A stretch of 64,000 nt of DNA from Polycladomyces zharkentensis (GTDB lineage Bacteria; Bacillota; Bacilli; Thermoactinomycetales; JIR-001), in assembly GCF_016938855.1 (NCBI RefSeq), contig NZ_JAFHAP010000005.1:124001-188000 (forward strand), in the 5' to 3' direction. Of the stretch, positions 11,764-56,743 are shown in pieces (the first letter of the stretch is position 1; each line of letters opens with the position of its first letter). The translations under genes were made by a program, and so were the position numbers. The notes under the pieces were generated by a model. That model was not told the origin of the DNA and did not search any database. It was given only the letters and a program-made list of their open reading frames with translations.

Positions 11764-12192
11764 TATAAAAAGCGAGCGGGAAAACTCAGCCTTGGAATGA
11801 AAGCGAGTGTCGGACGCGGGAGGGCTTTGTCCCTCTCGCGAGTCCGACATTTTTTGTTTCTTGTTCCCATTAAGTGGGCCGGTAGCAAGTGATGGAAGTG
11901 GACCCTTGCAACACGTCGCAAGTTTGCTCGCGGTCAGACCGTAAAGAAAACATTGAAAGAACGTATCCATTGTTCATGCGGTTATGTGGCAGACAGAGAT
12001 GTCAATGTCGCAAGAAATATCCTGTATCAAGGGATGGGATACGTTCCTGACCTGAGAGACGGACGATGAGAATCAACCTATTCCGGATTGGCCGAAGCCA
12101 TCGTGGATGGATGTGGGGTGCCACGCCGGATGTAGCGAGAAGCCCACGGCGACCTAAAGGGAGTGTCTCCGGTGCTTCAACCGTGTGGGACA
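11764..12192 (+). mobile_element. IS200/IS605-derived element with a tnpB relic (element 1)
   Basis: Left part: AAAGCGAGCGGGAAAACTC, then GAATGAAAGCGAGTGTCGGAC leading into a large hairpin (GTCGGACGCGGGAGGG / CCCTCTCGCGAGTCCGAC, 11810-11848) and TTTTTT. Middle: the C-terminal piece of tnpB. Right part: GAAGCCATCGTGGATGGATG, CCACGCCGGATGTAGCGAG, AAGCCCACGG and a terminal hairpin CCCACGG / CCGTGTGGG. The same left and right ends recur in elements 2 to 5. The right part has the position and shape of the omega RNA that overlaps and follows tnpB genes. Exact borders are uncertain. Confidence 0.7.
11892..12069 (+). pseudogene. tnpB: tnpB C-terminal fragment, frameshifted
   Basis: Conceptual translation reads EVDPCNTSQVCSRS in one frame (11895-11936), then after a one-base shift near 11942 KKTLKERIHCSCGYV followed by ADRDVNVARNIL in another, ending at TGA 12067. 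These match the end of TnpB, the RNA-guided nuclease of IS200/IS605 elements: DP-NTSQ, the zinc ribbon and the DRDxNxARN motif with the last catalytic Asp. The first zinc knuckle has lost its second Cys and the second has lost one residue, so the piece is inactive. The RuvC I and II parts are absent. Confidence 0.85.
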
Positions 12193-12346
12193 AAAATCGG
12201 ACGCCATCGTTGAAGCAGATCGGTGGGCAAACGTAGTGATGTCTCATGACGACCGAAAATATCCGGGCCATTGGCGCACAGGGTATCGGGTTTTTTGTGA
12301 CTGCAGCTGTCAGAGTAAGGTGTGCCTATGTGGCATCATCGATTGC

Positions 12347-18944: not shown

Positions 18945-19255
18945 CAACGACATACCGGGGGAAAAGGTGGAGTGGTTCACCCACTCCCGAAGAGGGAAGC
19001 CGGTGAAAATCCGGCGCGGTCCCGCCACTGTGAATGGGGAGCCGGGCCGTATGTCACTGTCGAAAGACGGGAAGACACGGCCGCCAGGGGGCTGGAGGAT
19101 CTCTGGTATTCTCAGGTTGATGGAAAGATGGGTTTTCCAGCGACTTTAGCCAGGCGAAGTAGGAGCGAGTGGGAAAGAGATCCACCAGAATCAACCTGTT
19201 TACCACACTTGCAGCCCCCATGCGATGATCCATGAGCCAGGAGACCTGCCTTTTC
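18945..19255 (+). ncRNA. Cobalamin riboswitch with an enlarged internal arm
   Basis: The B12 box is intact: GGGAAGCCGGTG, AAAATCCGGCGCGGTC, CCGCCACTGTGAATGGGGAG (18995-19042), CACTGTCGAAAGACGGGAAG, and the 3' box GAGCCAGGAGACCTGCC (19234-19250). Adenosyl- or other cobalamins bind this aptamer. Between the last two conserved parts there is an extra stretch of about 135 bases (19085-19220) enclosed by GGGGGCTG / CAGCCCCC. A transcription terminator at 19381 forms the expression platform. It precedes nrdA, so ribonucleotide reductase is expected to be off when B12 is abundant. Confidence 0.93.
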
Positions 19256-19282
19256 CGACAACACCGTTGACCTACGAGGATA

Positions 19283-19442: not shown

Positions 19443-21656
19443 ATGGAACTAGTAGAGATGAAAAAAGAAACGGAATGGGAGTCGCTCGTTCGCTCGGTGT
19501 GCGCAGAGACAGGAGATCTCGATGCCCAATCGCTGATTGTCGCCGCCAAAGCGCAGCTAAGGGAAGGGATGACGGATCGGGAGATTCTGCGGACATTGGC
19601 GCAGACGGCGGTGGAACAAACCAGCATCGAACAACCGGGTTGGCAGTTTGTTGCGGCCCGTTTGCTGGCGGAGGAATTGTATCGTGCGGCGGCCCACAAC
19701 CGGGGATATGACCGTGTGCAGGGCGAGTACGGCGATTTTTATGATTTACTGCAAAAGCTGACGGCAAAAGGGTTGTACGGTTCCTATCTGCTGGAACATT
19801 ACACCGAGGCGGAAATCCGCGAACTGGAAGCCTCCATCTGTCCGGAGCGGGACCGGTTGTTTCATTACATCGGATTGAAGATACTGGCGGACCGGTATCT
19901 CGTGCGGGATTACGACGGTGCGGTGATGGAGTTGCCGCAAGAGCGGTTTATGGTCATCGCCATGCATCTGGCAATGAAGGAACGGGATCGGTTGACGTGG
20001 GCCAAACAGATGTACGACGTGTTGTCCCGGTTGGAGGTGACGGTGGCGACACCGACGATGAGCAATGCCGGGCGGCCATTGCACCAGCTTTCTTCCTGTT
20101 TCATCGATACCGTGGACGATTCGCTGTGGTCCATTTACAATACCAACACCGCTACCGCCCAGGTGTCCAAACACGGTGGTGGTGTGGGCATCTATCTGGG
20201 AAAAGTGCGGGCCAAGGGGTCCAAAATTCGCGGACACAAAGGCGCTTCCGGCGGTGTCATCCCTTGGGTGCGCAATTTCAACAACACGGCCGTGGCGGTG
20301 GATCAACTGGGGGTGCGCAAAGGGGCGTTTGCCATCTATCTGGATGTGTGGCATGCGGACATCCTTGACTTTTTGAACCTGAAGACCAATAACGGTGATG
20401 ACCGGTTAAAAGCGCACGACATCTTTCCCGGCGTATGCATCCCCGACCTGTTTATGCGCCGGGTGAAGGAACGGGGGATGTGGTACCTGTTCGACCCGCA
20501 CGAAGTACGTGAAGTGATGGGGTTCAGCCTGGAAGACGCTTGGGGAGAGGAGTTTGAACGGCGGTATGAGGCGTGTGTCAATCACCCGGAACTGAGTCGT
20601 AAGGAAATCCCGGCGATTGAAGTGATGAAGCGCATCATGGTGAGCGCCTATGAGACCGGGACGCCGTTCCTGTTCTTCCGCGATACGGTCAATCGGCTCA
20701 ATCCCAACAAACACAAGGGAATGATCTATTCTTCCAACTTGTGCACGGAAATTTGCCAAAACATGTCCCCAACCGAGCTGATCAGTGAGGAGTTGGAGGA
20801 TGGCGTCATCGTCACCAAGCAAAAACCGGGGGACTTCGTCGTCTGCAACCTGTCGTCCATCAATTTGGGACGGATCACATCCCTGGAGGATTTGGCACGC
20901 ATCATCCCGATCCAGATGCGCATGTTGGACAATGTGATCGACCTCAACCTGTATCCGGTCAAACAGGCGGAAGTAACCAACCGCAAGTACCGGGCCGTCG
21001 GATTGGGTACGAGCGGATACCATCAATACCTGGCACAGAAAGGAATCGATTGGGAGTCGGAAGAACATTTGGCCGAAGCGGACCGGTTGTTTGAGGAGAT
21101 TGCCTATCAGACGATTCGGGCCTCCATGGAGCTGGCCAAGGAAAAAGGAGCGTATCCGGCATTTGAAGGAAGCGAGTGGCAAACCGGCGCGTTCTTCGAT
21201 CAGCGCGGCTACACCGGAGAACGTTGGCAAACACTGCGGGAGGAAGTGAGACGATACGGGGTGCGCAATGCTTGGATGATCGCCATCGCACCGACGGGTT
21301 CCACCTCGCTCATTGCCGGTTCGACCGCCGGGATCGATCCGGTCTATGCCAAGTTTTTTGTCGAGGAAAAACGGGGAGCGCTCATTCCGCAGACAGCACC
21401 CAACCTCTCAAAGCAAACTTTCTGGTATTACAAGGAGGCACACCGGATCGACCAGATGTGGAGCATTCGCGCCGCCGGCATTCGCCAACGCCATATCGAC
21501 CAGTCGCAGTCGTTCAATCTGTTTATTACGCCGGACACCAACGCCAAGGCATTTTTGTCCATGTACCTGGCCGCATGGGAAAACGGGCTGAAAACCGTCT
21601 ACTACGTGCGCAATCAATCGTTGGAAGTGGAAGAGTGCGTCAGCTGTTCGTCCTAA
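19443..21656 (+). CDS. nrdA: Class I ribonucleotide reductase, large (alpha) subunit
   Basis: 737-residue NrdA/NrdE-type subunit that reduces ribonucleoside diphosphates to deoxy forms. The N-terminal 90 residues resemble an ATP-cone remnant. Active-site features are TPTMSNAGRP and QLSSCF (redox Cys), SSNLCTEICQN (the N-x-C-x-E catalytic triad, about residues 435-445), and a C-terminal ECVSCSS tail with the Cys pair that shuttles electrons. It follows the cobalamin riboswitch, so it is predicted to be made when B12 is scarce, as a partner to a B12-dependent class II enzyme that would be elsewhere in the genome. Confidence 0.95.
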   Translation: MELVEMKKETEWESLVRSVCAETGDLDAQSLIVAAKAQLREGMTDREILRTLAQTAVEQTSIEQPGWQFVAARLLAEELYRAAAHNRGYDRVQGEYGDFYDLLQKLTAKGLYGSYLLEHYTEAEIRELEASICPERDRLFHYIGLKILADRYLVRDYDGAVMELPQERFMVIAMHLAMKERDRLTWAKQMYDVLSRLEVTVATPTMSNAGRPLHQLSSCFIDTVDDSLWSIYNTNTATAQVSKHGGGVGIYLGKVRAKGSKIRGHKGASGGVIPWVRNFNNTAVAVDQLGVRKGAFAIYLDVWHADILDFLNLKTNNGDDRLKAHDIFPGVCIPDLFMRRVKERGMWYLFDPHEVREVMGFSLEDAWGEEFERRYEACVNHPELSRKEIPAIEVMKRIMVSAYETGTPFLFFRDTVNRLNPNKHKGMIYSSNLCTEICQNMSPTELISEELEDGVIVTKQKPGDFVVCNLSSINLGRITSLEDLARIIPIQMRMLDNVIDLNLYPVKQAEVTNRKYRAVGLGTSGYHQYLAQKGIDWESEEHLAEADRLFEEIAYQTIRASMELAKEKGAYPAFEGSEWQTGAFFDQRGYTGERWQTLREEVRRYGVRNAWMIAIAPTGSTSLIAGSTAGIDPVYAKFFVEEKRGALIPQTAPNLSKQTFWYYKEAHRIDQMWSIRAAGIRQRHIDQSQSFNLFITPDTNAKAFLSMYLAAWENGLKTVYYVRNQSLEVEECVSCSS

Positions 21657-27217: not shown

Positions 27218-27317
27218 AAATAGAATAGTTGGAATAAGAGGCCCGTCATCTGATAATGACTTGTATTGAGGAAATGCCGTTTTACTTGTTTTTTTGGCGT
27301 GGATACTAATGCGATTT

Positions 27318-27595
27318 ATAAAGCGCGGGAGGGAAAACCCAACCCTTCAGGTTTGCGATGAAAGCGAGCGTCGGATGCGGAAGGGCTTTGTTCCTTGCTC
27401 AAGTCCGGCAGAATTTTATTCAATCGATCCGAGAAATTCCAAAACACTGAAAACTACGATACGAGCAACAACTCGCAGAATGAAAATCACGGCTTGGCCT
27501 AAGCCATCGTGTATGGATGTGGGCAGCTACGCCAGATGAAAGCCCGGCACCCCAAAGTGAGTGCCTATGGTGTTTCACCGTGTGGGGCAAGTCAG
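27318..27595 (+). mobile_element. IS200/IS605-derived element without genes (element 2)
   Basis: Left end: AAAGCGCGGGAGGG, GATGAAAGCGAGCGTCGGATG and the hairpin GTCGGATGCGG...AAGTCCGGC, followed by a promoter-like GAATTTTATTCAATC. Right end: AAGCCATCGTGTATGGATG, CTACGCCAGATGAAAGCCC, then a hairpin with CCGGCACC and GGTG...CCGTGTGGGG. About 280 bases with no tnpA or tnpB codons. The layout matches element 4 almost block for block. It lies inside the DUF3592-type gene. Confidence 0.65.
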
Positions 27596-27767
27596 GGGGT
27601 CTTGTTCCATTTCCGCAAATATGGCGTGGAGGTAACAGGAGAAATGATTGACCTGGAAGCGAAGGATCACGTCGAAGATGGTGTCAAATCCGTCGTTTAT
27701 CTCCCAACGTTCCGATTCATCGATTAAGGGGGGAGGAACGGATTTACAGAAAAAGCCGTCTGAAAGC

Positions 27768-28203
27768 CCATGGTTTCAATCGTGGGATGAAAGGTGGCGT
27801 TGCTCGGCATCTCCTTTTGGGGATGGTAAGAACAACCAATTTTCTGTATAATCGAACGTATGAGCGGTGCTCATTCCACTGGTAGTGGGTTTATTCCTGT
27901 GGACGTCATGGTATGGTGTTCCAGTGACGAACTCATCTCTCCCACTGGGTAAAACCATGAGAGTGGGAAAAAGGAACTAGCGTACTGGTAATACCACGGG
28001 CACTTCCGTTGGTCGCAGGTATGCCGCCCATGTGGGTACATGTGCCCAGTGGCGCAGAACTATATGGGACGGGGTGATGACACACCCCTTAGCTTGAGGG
28101 TTGCCCGAAGCAGAAATGGAATGAGGGCGTTAACTACTCAAGAATCCCACGGCGACCAAAGATAGTATCTGTGTACTTTAGCCGTGTGGAGTGTCAAAAG
28201 CTG
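27768..28203 (+). mobile_element. IS200/IS605-derived element carrying a long structured RNA (element 3)
   Basis: The left end (CCATGGTTTCAATCGTGG, GATGAAAG, GCGTTGCTCGG, ATCTCC...GGGGATG, AACAAC, then TATAAT at 27847) matches the left end of element 5 over about 80 bases. The right end (CCCACGGCGACC ... GCCGTGTGG, 28146-28189) matches elements 1 and 2. The 290 bases between hold no reading frame. Sequences on both sides belong to one DUF3592-type gene, which sets the borders to within a few bases. Confidence 0.7.
27857..28195 (+). ncRNA. Candidate HEARO/IscB-type omega RNA
   Basis: Begins about 5 bases after a TATAAT box with ATGAGCGGTGCTC and contains a series of strong hairpins: CTCTCCCACTGG...GAGAGTGGG, GGTAATACC, GGGCACTTCC, CCCATGTGGGTACATG, GGGGTGATGACACACCCC. 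The 3' part GGGCGTTAACTACTCAAGAATCCCACGG runs into the transposon right-end hairpin. From memory this order resembles the HEARO RNAs that guide IscB nucleases; a covariance search was not possible. No iscB gene is nearby, so any partner would act in trans. Confidence 0.5.
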
Positions 28204-28399
28204 TTGTTGGCCCCCATCAGGCGCCCCAAGATTGGAGAAAAAGTTCCACTTCGCTATGTGCCGGGAAAAAGAGAGATTGTGAGTGAAGGTGTTGGATTTG
28301 AAACGGCCATGATTGTGCTGTACATGATTGCCGGTTCGATGGTGATGTGGTTGGGTGTTTGCATATTCAATATCCTTTAGAGAAGACCCGTATTCTTGA

Positions 28400-55994: not shown

Positions 55995-56086
55995 TCGATA
56001 ACGAACAAAGGACCCTGTTGCGGGTCCTTTGCAAAAACGATGGATGGAAAAGTCCCCTGAGGGAACAGGGGAGCAACAGGTCAGCA

Positions 56087-56197
56087 TCAGTAACCGAAGC
56101 CGACACCGGCGAAGACAAAGATAGTGGCGATGACCAACAGGAAGATCAGCAGTCGGCGCAGGCCGATGCCGAAACCGTAGCCGTAACCGTAGCTCAC
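56087..56197 (-). CDS. YjcZ-like sporulation micro-protein, copy 1
   Basis: 36 residues: MSYGYGYGFGIGLRRLL followed by a membrane helix (IFLLVIATIFVFAGVGFGY end region). A Gly/Tyr-rich start plus one helix is the build of YjcZ/SscA-type proteins made in the mother cell during spore formation. The GTG start has AAAGGGGA seven bases upstream. Copies 1 to 3 are almost identical in the helix at the DNA level. Confidence 0.85.
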   Translation of the reverse strand: MSYGYGYGFGIGLRRLLIFLLVIATIFVFAGVGFGY

Positions 56198-56239
56198 GCG
56201 ATCGTCCCCTTTAACAGAATTTTGTTTTTGCTGTCGTCC

Positions 56240-56356
56240 TTAGTAGCCACCAAAACCGACACCGGCGAAGACGAAGATGGTGGCGATGACCAACAGGAAG
56301 ATCAGCAGTCGGCGCAGGCCAATGCCGAAGCCGTAGCCATAACCGTAGTAGCCCAT
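56240..56356 (-). CDS. YjcZ-like sporulation micro-protein, copy 2
   Basis: 38 residues: MGYYGYGYGFGIGLRRLL, the same helix as copy 1, ending VGFGGY. The ATG is preceded by GAAAGGAGGGGAG, a very strong ribosome site. It is too short for most gene finders. It lies 42 bases upstream (in transcription order) of copy 1. Confidence 0.87.
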   Translation of the reverse strand: MGYYGYGYGFGIGLRRLLIFLLVIATIFVFAGVGFGGY

Positions 56357-56399
56357 TTTCTCCCCTCCTTTCAATGGCATCATGGGATGTCGGTCAACA

Positions 56400-56510
56400 C
56401 TAGTAACCGAAGCCGACACCGGCGAAGACGAAGATAGTGGCGATGACCAACAGGAAGATCAGCAGTCGGCGCAAACCGATGCCGAAGCCGTAACCGTAAC
56501 CATAGCCCAT
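56400..56510 (-). CDS. YjcZ-like sporulation micro-protein, copy 3
   Basis: 36 residues: MGYGYGYGFGIGLRRLL and the shared helix, ending GVGFGY. GAAAGGGGGG lies before the ATG. The intergenic sequence differs from copy 2 while the coding part is nearly the same, which suggests recent duplication or gene conversion. Confidence 0.87.
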   Translation of the reverse strand: MGYGYGYGFGIGLRRLLIFLLVIATIFVFAGVGFGY

Positions 56511-56546
56511 GGATCGTCCCCCCTTTCTTTCTATCTCAAAATGAAG

Positions 56547-56653
56547 CTAACAAGTGTAACCGAAGCCGATACTGGAGTAAACGAAGATATGGGAAATTAC
56601 CAACAGGAAAATCAGGAGGCGGCAGAGGCCGAAGCCAAATCCGTAGCAGGCAT
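56547..56653 (-). pseudogene. YjcZ-like micro-protein, copy 4, frameshifted at its start
   Basis: The frame CYGFGFGLCRLLIFLLVIS followed by HIFVYSSIGFGYTC is intact, but the only ATG (56653), preceded by a strong AAAGGAGG, is one base out of register. No alternative start exists in the coding frame before a stop at 56684. Loss of one G after ATG (ATGGCC to ATGCC) would explain it. The sequence has diverged more than copies 1-3. Confidence 0.7.
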
Positions 56654-56743
56654 TTCGGCTTCCTCCTTTTGTTCCCGGTTGCTATACCTTATGCTATGCA
56701 GATTTTCGGTGTACAGGCGGATACCCGTGGGCAAAAGAACCAA

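Follow-up and report, generated by a model that had tools for sequence, protein, structure and literature searches.

The region 27862-28197 of the window, i.e., the whole 64,000-nt stretch of Polycladomyces zharkentensis DNA analysed here, contains a structured RNA that is devoid of open reading frames (ORFs) and lies inside a 450-nt IS200/IS605-type element (27748-28197) placed after TTTAC. Judging by its sequence, this element is PATE-like (PATEs are palindrome-associated transposable elements), with a complete TnpB-type guide RNA scaffold alongside its own conserved RNA domain. It is probably non-autonomous, producing an extended omega-RNA of its own and exploiting TnpA and TnpB in trans, with predicted loading and cleavage by TnpB. 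Guide-bearing PATEs of such kind may already be in print; work by Meers et al. from 2023 on IS605 guide RNAs may mention them.

Structure of the element and of its RNA

The limits of the element were set by alignment of copies with their flanks (Table 1). The first-pass annotation had proposed a long, structured RNA without a reading frame that starts just after a TATAAT and runs into the right end; this proposal is borne out, with coordinates correct to a few bases, and so is the description of a solo guide-type RNA that has no nuclease gene, sits in an IS605-like shell whose ends are of the tnpB type and lies directly 5' of the insertion flank. The folding is unbroken from the first hairpin (GAGC-GGT-GCTC, beginning at 27862) to the right end, and there is no same-strand ORF of at least 60 aa within 27860-28170. 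A scan upstream of the TATAAT box found no -35 consensus, which counts against the preferred reading.

The single-sequence fold is only moderately better than those of dinucleotide shuffles (z of -2.5; 1 of 100 shuffles as good), so that the case rests on the comparison of copies. In an alignment of 29 homologous full elements from the same genome and from other genera, 95.0% of the cells are paired and 34 of the 81 pairs show compensatory changes, with 199 compensatory cells altogether and none of 500 shuffles as good; when the structure is slid along the alignment as a control, pairing drops to 37-43%. Because of the compensatory changes in 34 pairs, it is clear that the RNA of the solo elements is under selection at the RNA level.

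Table 1. Coordinates of the element in the window and of its parts
Feature	Position	Strand	Basis or remark
TTTAC target/TAM motif left of the element	27743..27747	+	NTTAC precedes 34 of 41 distinct left ends (own and other genomes); TTTAC in 26
Left end (LE), subterminal palindrome AAGCCCATGGTTTCAATCGTGGGATGAA	27748..27810	+	Alignment of copies including tnpB element L025
TATAAT, -10-like box	27847..27852	+	In register among subfamily A copies
5' RNA domain	27862..27980	+	Covariance model R1 and pair counts
Helix P3	27906-27912/27954-27960	+	Encloses P4
Helix P4	27922-27927/27942-27947	+	Within P3
3' scaffold P6-P10	27981..28142	+	Homology with the omega-RNA region of elements that carry tnpB
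24-nt mini-hairpin unit in P6 loop	27992..28015	-	Absent in L007, L019, L025 and most other genera
Right end (RE), terminal palindrome CCCACGG...CCGTGTGG, TGTCAA end	28143..28197	+	Copy comparison; TGTCAA at 28192-28197, TGTCAA or TCTCAA across copies
Degenerate mini-hairpin unit in RE palindrome loop	28153..28175	+	Absent in L004, L007, L009, L025
Predicted guide, 16 nt of flanking DNA AAGCTGTTGTTGGCCC	28198..28213	+	Inferred by analogy with TnpB reRNA (ISDra2, PMC8612924)

The 5' domain, of about 120 nt, follows the promoter-like box, precedes the scaffold and consists of the hairpins P1 and P2, helix P3 around P4, and a further 5' closing interaction that could be either a GGUUC/GAACY pseudoknot or a nested GUUCC/GGAAC helix, the data fitting both. 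P3 and P4 covary well; P3 reads UCAUGGU/ACCAUGA in the window, and UUAUGGU/ACCAUAA and UAAUAGU/ACUAUUA elsewhere. The covariance model R1, built from the 5' domain alone, matches 24 loci in the same genome, all of which lack tnpB, with no such gene between the element ends, and none of the 8 tnpB-linked loci (L025, L095, L099, L118, L119, L120, L185 and L187). Thus, the 5' domain is limited to tnpB-less elements and, being missing from the tested tnpB elements, is not a remnant of these. No Rfam family matches the domain. In several copies (L091, L094, L109 and L131), the domain contains a string like GTTCYTTGAAAA, which we take to resemble the rRNA boxA antiterminator of Gram-positive bacteria.

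Relation to TnpB elements and distribution of the copies

The 3' portion of the RNA, about 215 nt comprising the scaffold and the right end, matches the omega-RNA scaffold of TnpB. The scaffolds of G000 subfamily A are 85-87% identical to the nearest scaffolds of tnpB elements, and the base pairs derived from the solo elements are all kept in the tnpB-linked scaffolds of six genomes and to 89% in those of a seventh. This conservation of pairs identifies the 3' portion as a TnpB omega-RNA scaffold and, by the same token, puts the guide, like that of TnpB, in the 3' flank. The first-pass annotation had likened the order of hairpins to HEARO RNA, a resemblance that does not hold up given this scaffold and the lack of any match to RF02033. 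Of the two findings which that annotation had taken to weigh jointly against its reading, the lack of a model match is indeed what is seen; the other, a lack of conservation of the hairpins, clearly is not.

The guide of the TnpB omega-RNA (reRNA) comes from the 3' flank (ISDra2; Karvelis 2021, PMC8612924). The solo elements share with this system a right-end scaffold, the 3'-flank guide position and a TAM-like motif at the left end (PMC8612924), and their scaffold is homologous to, and structurally conserved in, tnpB elements from the same lineages; they are inserted 3' of a fixed TAM, and their right end adjoins the guide flank. In contrast to such elements, they have no tnpB inside, a promoter-like sequence of their own and the additional conserved 5' domain. 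Elements that have these ends and carry tnpB occur both in this genome and in relatives. One of them is L025 (contig 10, 41550-43120), which has the same left end, right end and TTTAC as the solo elements, a truncated tnpA and an intact TnpB ORF of 351 aa (NF040570 guided_TnpB, PF07282 and PF01385) with RuvC-type motifs GIDLG, RMED and HADLNG identified by eye; its last 160-200 nt or so are homologous to 27981-28197 of the window. A Desulfosporosinus acididurans-type genome encodes five solo copies beside a complete IS605 element with a TnpA of 132 aa and a TnpB of 385 aa, which shares its ends and scaffold with the solo copies (94-98%) and has no 5' domain; hence the same pair of element types recurs in distant lineages. 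The Desulfosporosinus solo scaffolds show an identity of 0.94 to their own TnpB element compared with 0.56-0.62 to other lineages; in these distant lineages, each solo type bears the scaffold that belongs to its lineage. No such one-to-one correspondence between solo scaffolds and the TnpB of the same genome is seen within the order, however, which counts against the preferred reading.

A search of the 3.3-Mb genome with a 601-bp query returned about 50 matches. The copies form two main subfamilies that are 25-30% apart; L002 and L003 are 98-99% identical to L004, which indicates a spread that is recent on the evolutionary scale. Many copies are damaged, and the Y1 transposases found in the assembly are all truncated, which puts the present mobility of the element in doubt; both observations speak against the preferred reading, although intact transposase copies could possibly lie at contig breaks. 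Among 61 genomes (this one and 60 relatives), DNA matches were found in 31, representing 21 genera nearly all within the order, and many of these matches are full-length solo elements. R1 together with a degenerate DNA pattern additionally matches Marinithermofilum, Thermoflavimicrobium and Paenactinomyces and, outside the order, Desulfosporosinus, Clostridiales MAGs and one Symbiobacteriaceae MAG; the plasmid and phage collections searched gave no match. A search for empty sites identified a syntenic site in a congener that lacks the element, but the flank is deleted there as well. Apparent copies consisting only of the left end and the 5' domain proved not to be new arrangements of genes: they are cut off by the end of a contig, are without the mini-hairpin insert, or are truncated.

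Possible origins and functions

In TnpB systems, the guide RNA normally overlaps the tnpB gene and the right end of the same element. In the solo elements, the place of tnpA and tnpB would have been taken by a promoter-like sequence together with the 5' RNA domain, the latter continuous with the omega-RNA scaffold and the right end. Transcription is predicted to start at about 27859 and to continue into the 3' flank, the first 16 nt or so of which would serve as the guide. The RNA would then be loaded by TnpB supplied in trans, which would cut the TTTAC donor joint left by TnpA-mediated excision, and repair of the cut would restore the element. Cutting of the donor joint after excision, followed by restoration through repair, has been proposed for tnpB elements themselves (PMC8612924). 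The 5' domain probably replaces the context of the tnpB mRNA, i.e., provides stability, the correct 5' end or loading, or else competes for TnpB; candidate roles are definition of the 5' end or stability, preferential loading, and inhibition. More tentatively, and with rather more reserve than for the reading as a whole, the domain could represent a new RNA family that nuclease-less IS605 elements alone have long carried across Bacillota and that converts the TnpB omega-RNA into a dedicated trans-acting RNA (a hijacker or an inhibitor), that is, an RNA-only parasite of an RNA-guided nuclease. A conserved family with nothing but an extended guide RNA would imply that exploitation of TnpB in trans is feasible, and would offer a natural split system for omega-RNA recognition and for selfish elements that parasitise one another; in its arrangement, it is reminiscent of CRISPR systems, in which the guide loci are separate. 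As for the 5' domain itself, it is a covariation-supported RNA family that is open to direct testing.

The most serious rival, itself rather unlikely, is that the solo RNA acts as a competitor or regulator: the shared scaffold would bind TnpB (or TnpA) and the 5' domain would render the RNA inactive or repressive, so that it damps the autonomous element or regulates genes beside the insertion. The exclusive association of the 5' domain with tnpB-less copies, and its conservation across distant Bacillota beyond the needs of a passive passenger, fit such a role, whereas the intact scaffold and right end up to the guide position and the retention of TTAC at the left are what guiding predicts. It is very unlikely that the copies are plain internal-deletion derivatives, functionless relics of a tnpB element in which only the ends matter for TnpA. 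Truncated or end-only copies without tnpB do exist (L029, L225 and L234), but the 5' domain is found in none of the tested tnpB elements and so is no deletion remnant, and the 34 pairs with compensatory changes, those in the 5' domain already by themselves, contradict this reading.

The solo elements are non-coding and multi-copy, with subterminal palindromes and ends in common with autonomous IS605 elements; the PATEs of Haloquadratum, in the part of the source available to us (PMC3119063), are likewise non-coding and of IS605 type, with near-terminal palindromes, no target duplication and co-occurring IS605 elements, but are described there as deletion derivatives or short non-coding elements, a conserved structured RNA not being part of that description.

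The two remaining rivals concern the identity of the RNA. An IStron-like element, with a catalytic or splicing RNA as the 5' domain, has precedent in the fusions of IS605 elements with group I introns (IStrons, PMC4227781), and in both cases an IS605-type element carries an additional RNA module. Unlike IStrons, the solo element has neither a group I intron nor genes; with a 5' domain of only about 120 nt, and with Rfam models of introns and ribozymes matching neither the window nor the distant homologues, this reading is quite improbable. A HEARO/IscB-class guide RNA inside an IS605 shell can be given hardly any credence. What favours it is a general look, that of a long, hairpin-rich, guide-type RNA borne by a transposon as in RF02033. 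However, Rfam searches at the gathering threshold (window) and at E<10 (region) gave no relevant match, only a chance miRNA match, and a scan of the distant homologues likewise gave nothing relevant. HEARO (RF02033) is absent from this genome; among 299 genomes of the phylum, by contrast, the same search recovers it in 26, which serves as a positive control. The 3' scaffold belongs to TnpB elements, and its guide position is 3' whereas the guide of IscB lies 5'. The N-terminal domain of IscB (RRXRR, PF14239) has no match in the genome, a result to be read together with the control set, which likewise gave no match.

Mini-hairpin units and other features of the window

Units of 24-26 nt (about CGACCAnnGGaAGTGCCnnnGGTA) that form mini-hairpins are present in some copies and absent from others, with no target duplication. 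They occupy the palindromes of both ends and, in reverse orientation, the P6 loop, as well as two more RNA sites in L088 from a relative; the left end of the copy in the window lacks the unit that other copies have there. Altogether, they are found in hairpin loops at at least five sites of IS605-type elements, in both orientations (L002, L003, L088, L194 and others), and once in tandem (L194). The corresponding pattern has 91 matches in the genome compared with 9 in the control, and a stricter one 80 compared with 1; the pattern is enriched in both congeners too. Apart from two chance-like matches, the inspected contexts in this genome are ends or loops of IS605-type elements, including other tnpB families. 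The same palindromes are targeted in Haloquadratum by SMR-A, small mobile repeats of about 110 bp (PMC3119063). Like the units, these are small, come without a target duplication and sit in near-terminal palindromes of IS605/PATE elements; the units differ from SMR-A in being only 24-26 nt long and in occurring also in internal RNA hairpin loops. Our literature search found no report of mobile units so small or inside RNA hairpins. L225, L234 and L058 are ultra-short elements (about 80-90 nt) in which the left half of the left end is joined to the right half of the right end via one hairpin with a mini-hairpin unit.

Directly upstream of the element, at about 27290-27590, there is a remnant of a second IS605-type family with the end CCGTGTGGGGCAAGTCA and a degenerate mini-hairpin unit near 27555-27580. 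This right end is also found on elements beside TnpB on contigs 8 and 17, and at about 11900-12200 of the window, where it follows a C-terminal remnant of TnpB and a mini-hairpin unit lies near 12149-12173. The window further contains a cobalamin riboswitch (18948-19267, 95.7 bits), whose aptamer is interrupted by an insertion of more than 100 nt and which precedes a ribonucleotide reductase-like ORF at 19443, and four consecutive copies of a 118-nt repeat (56079-56662) spaced about 155 nt from start to start.
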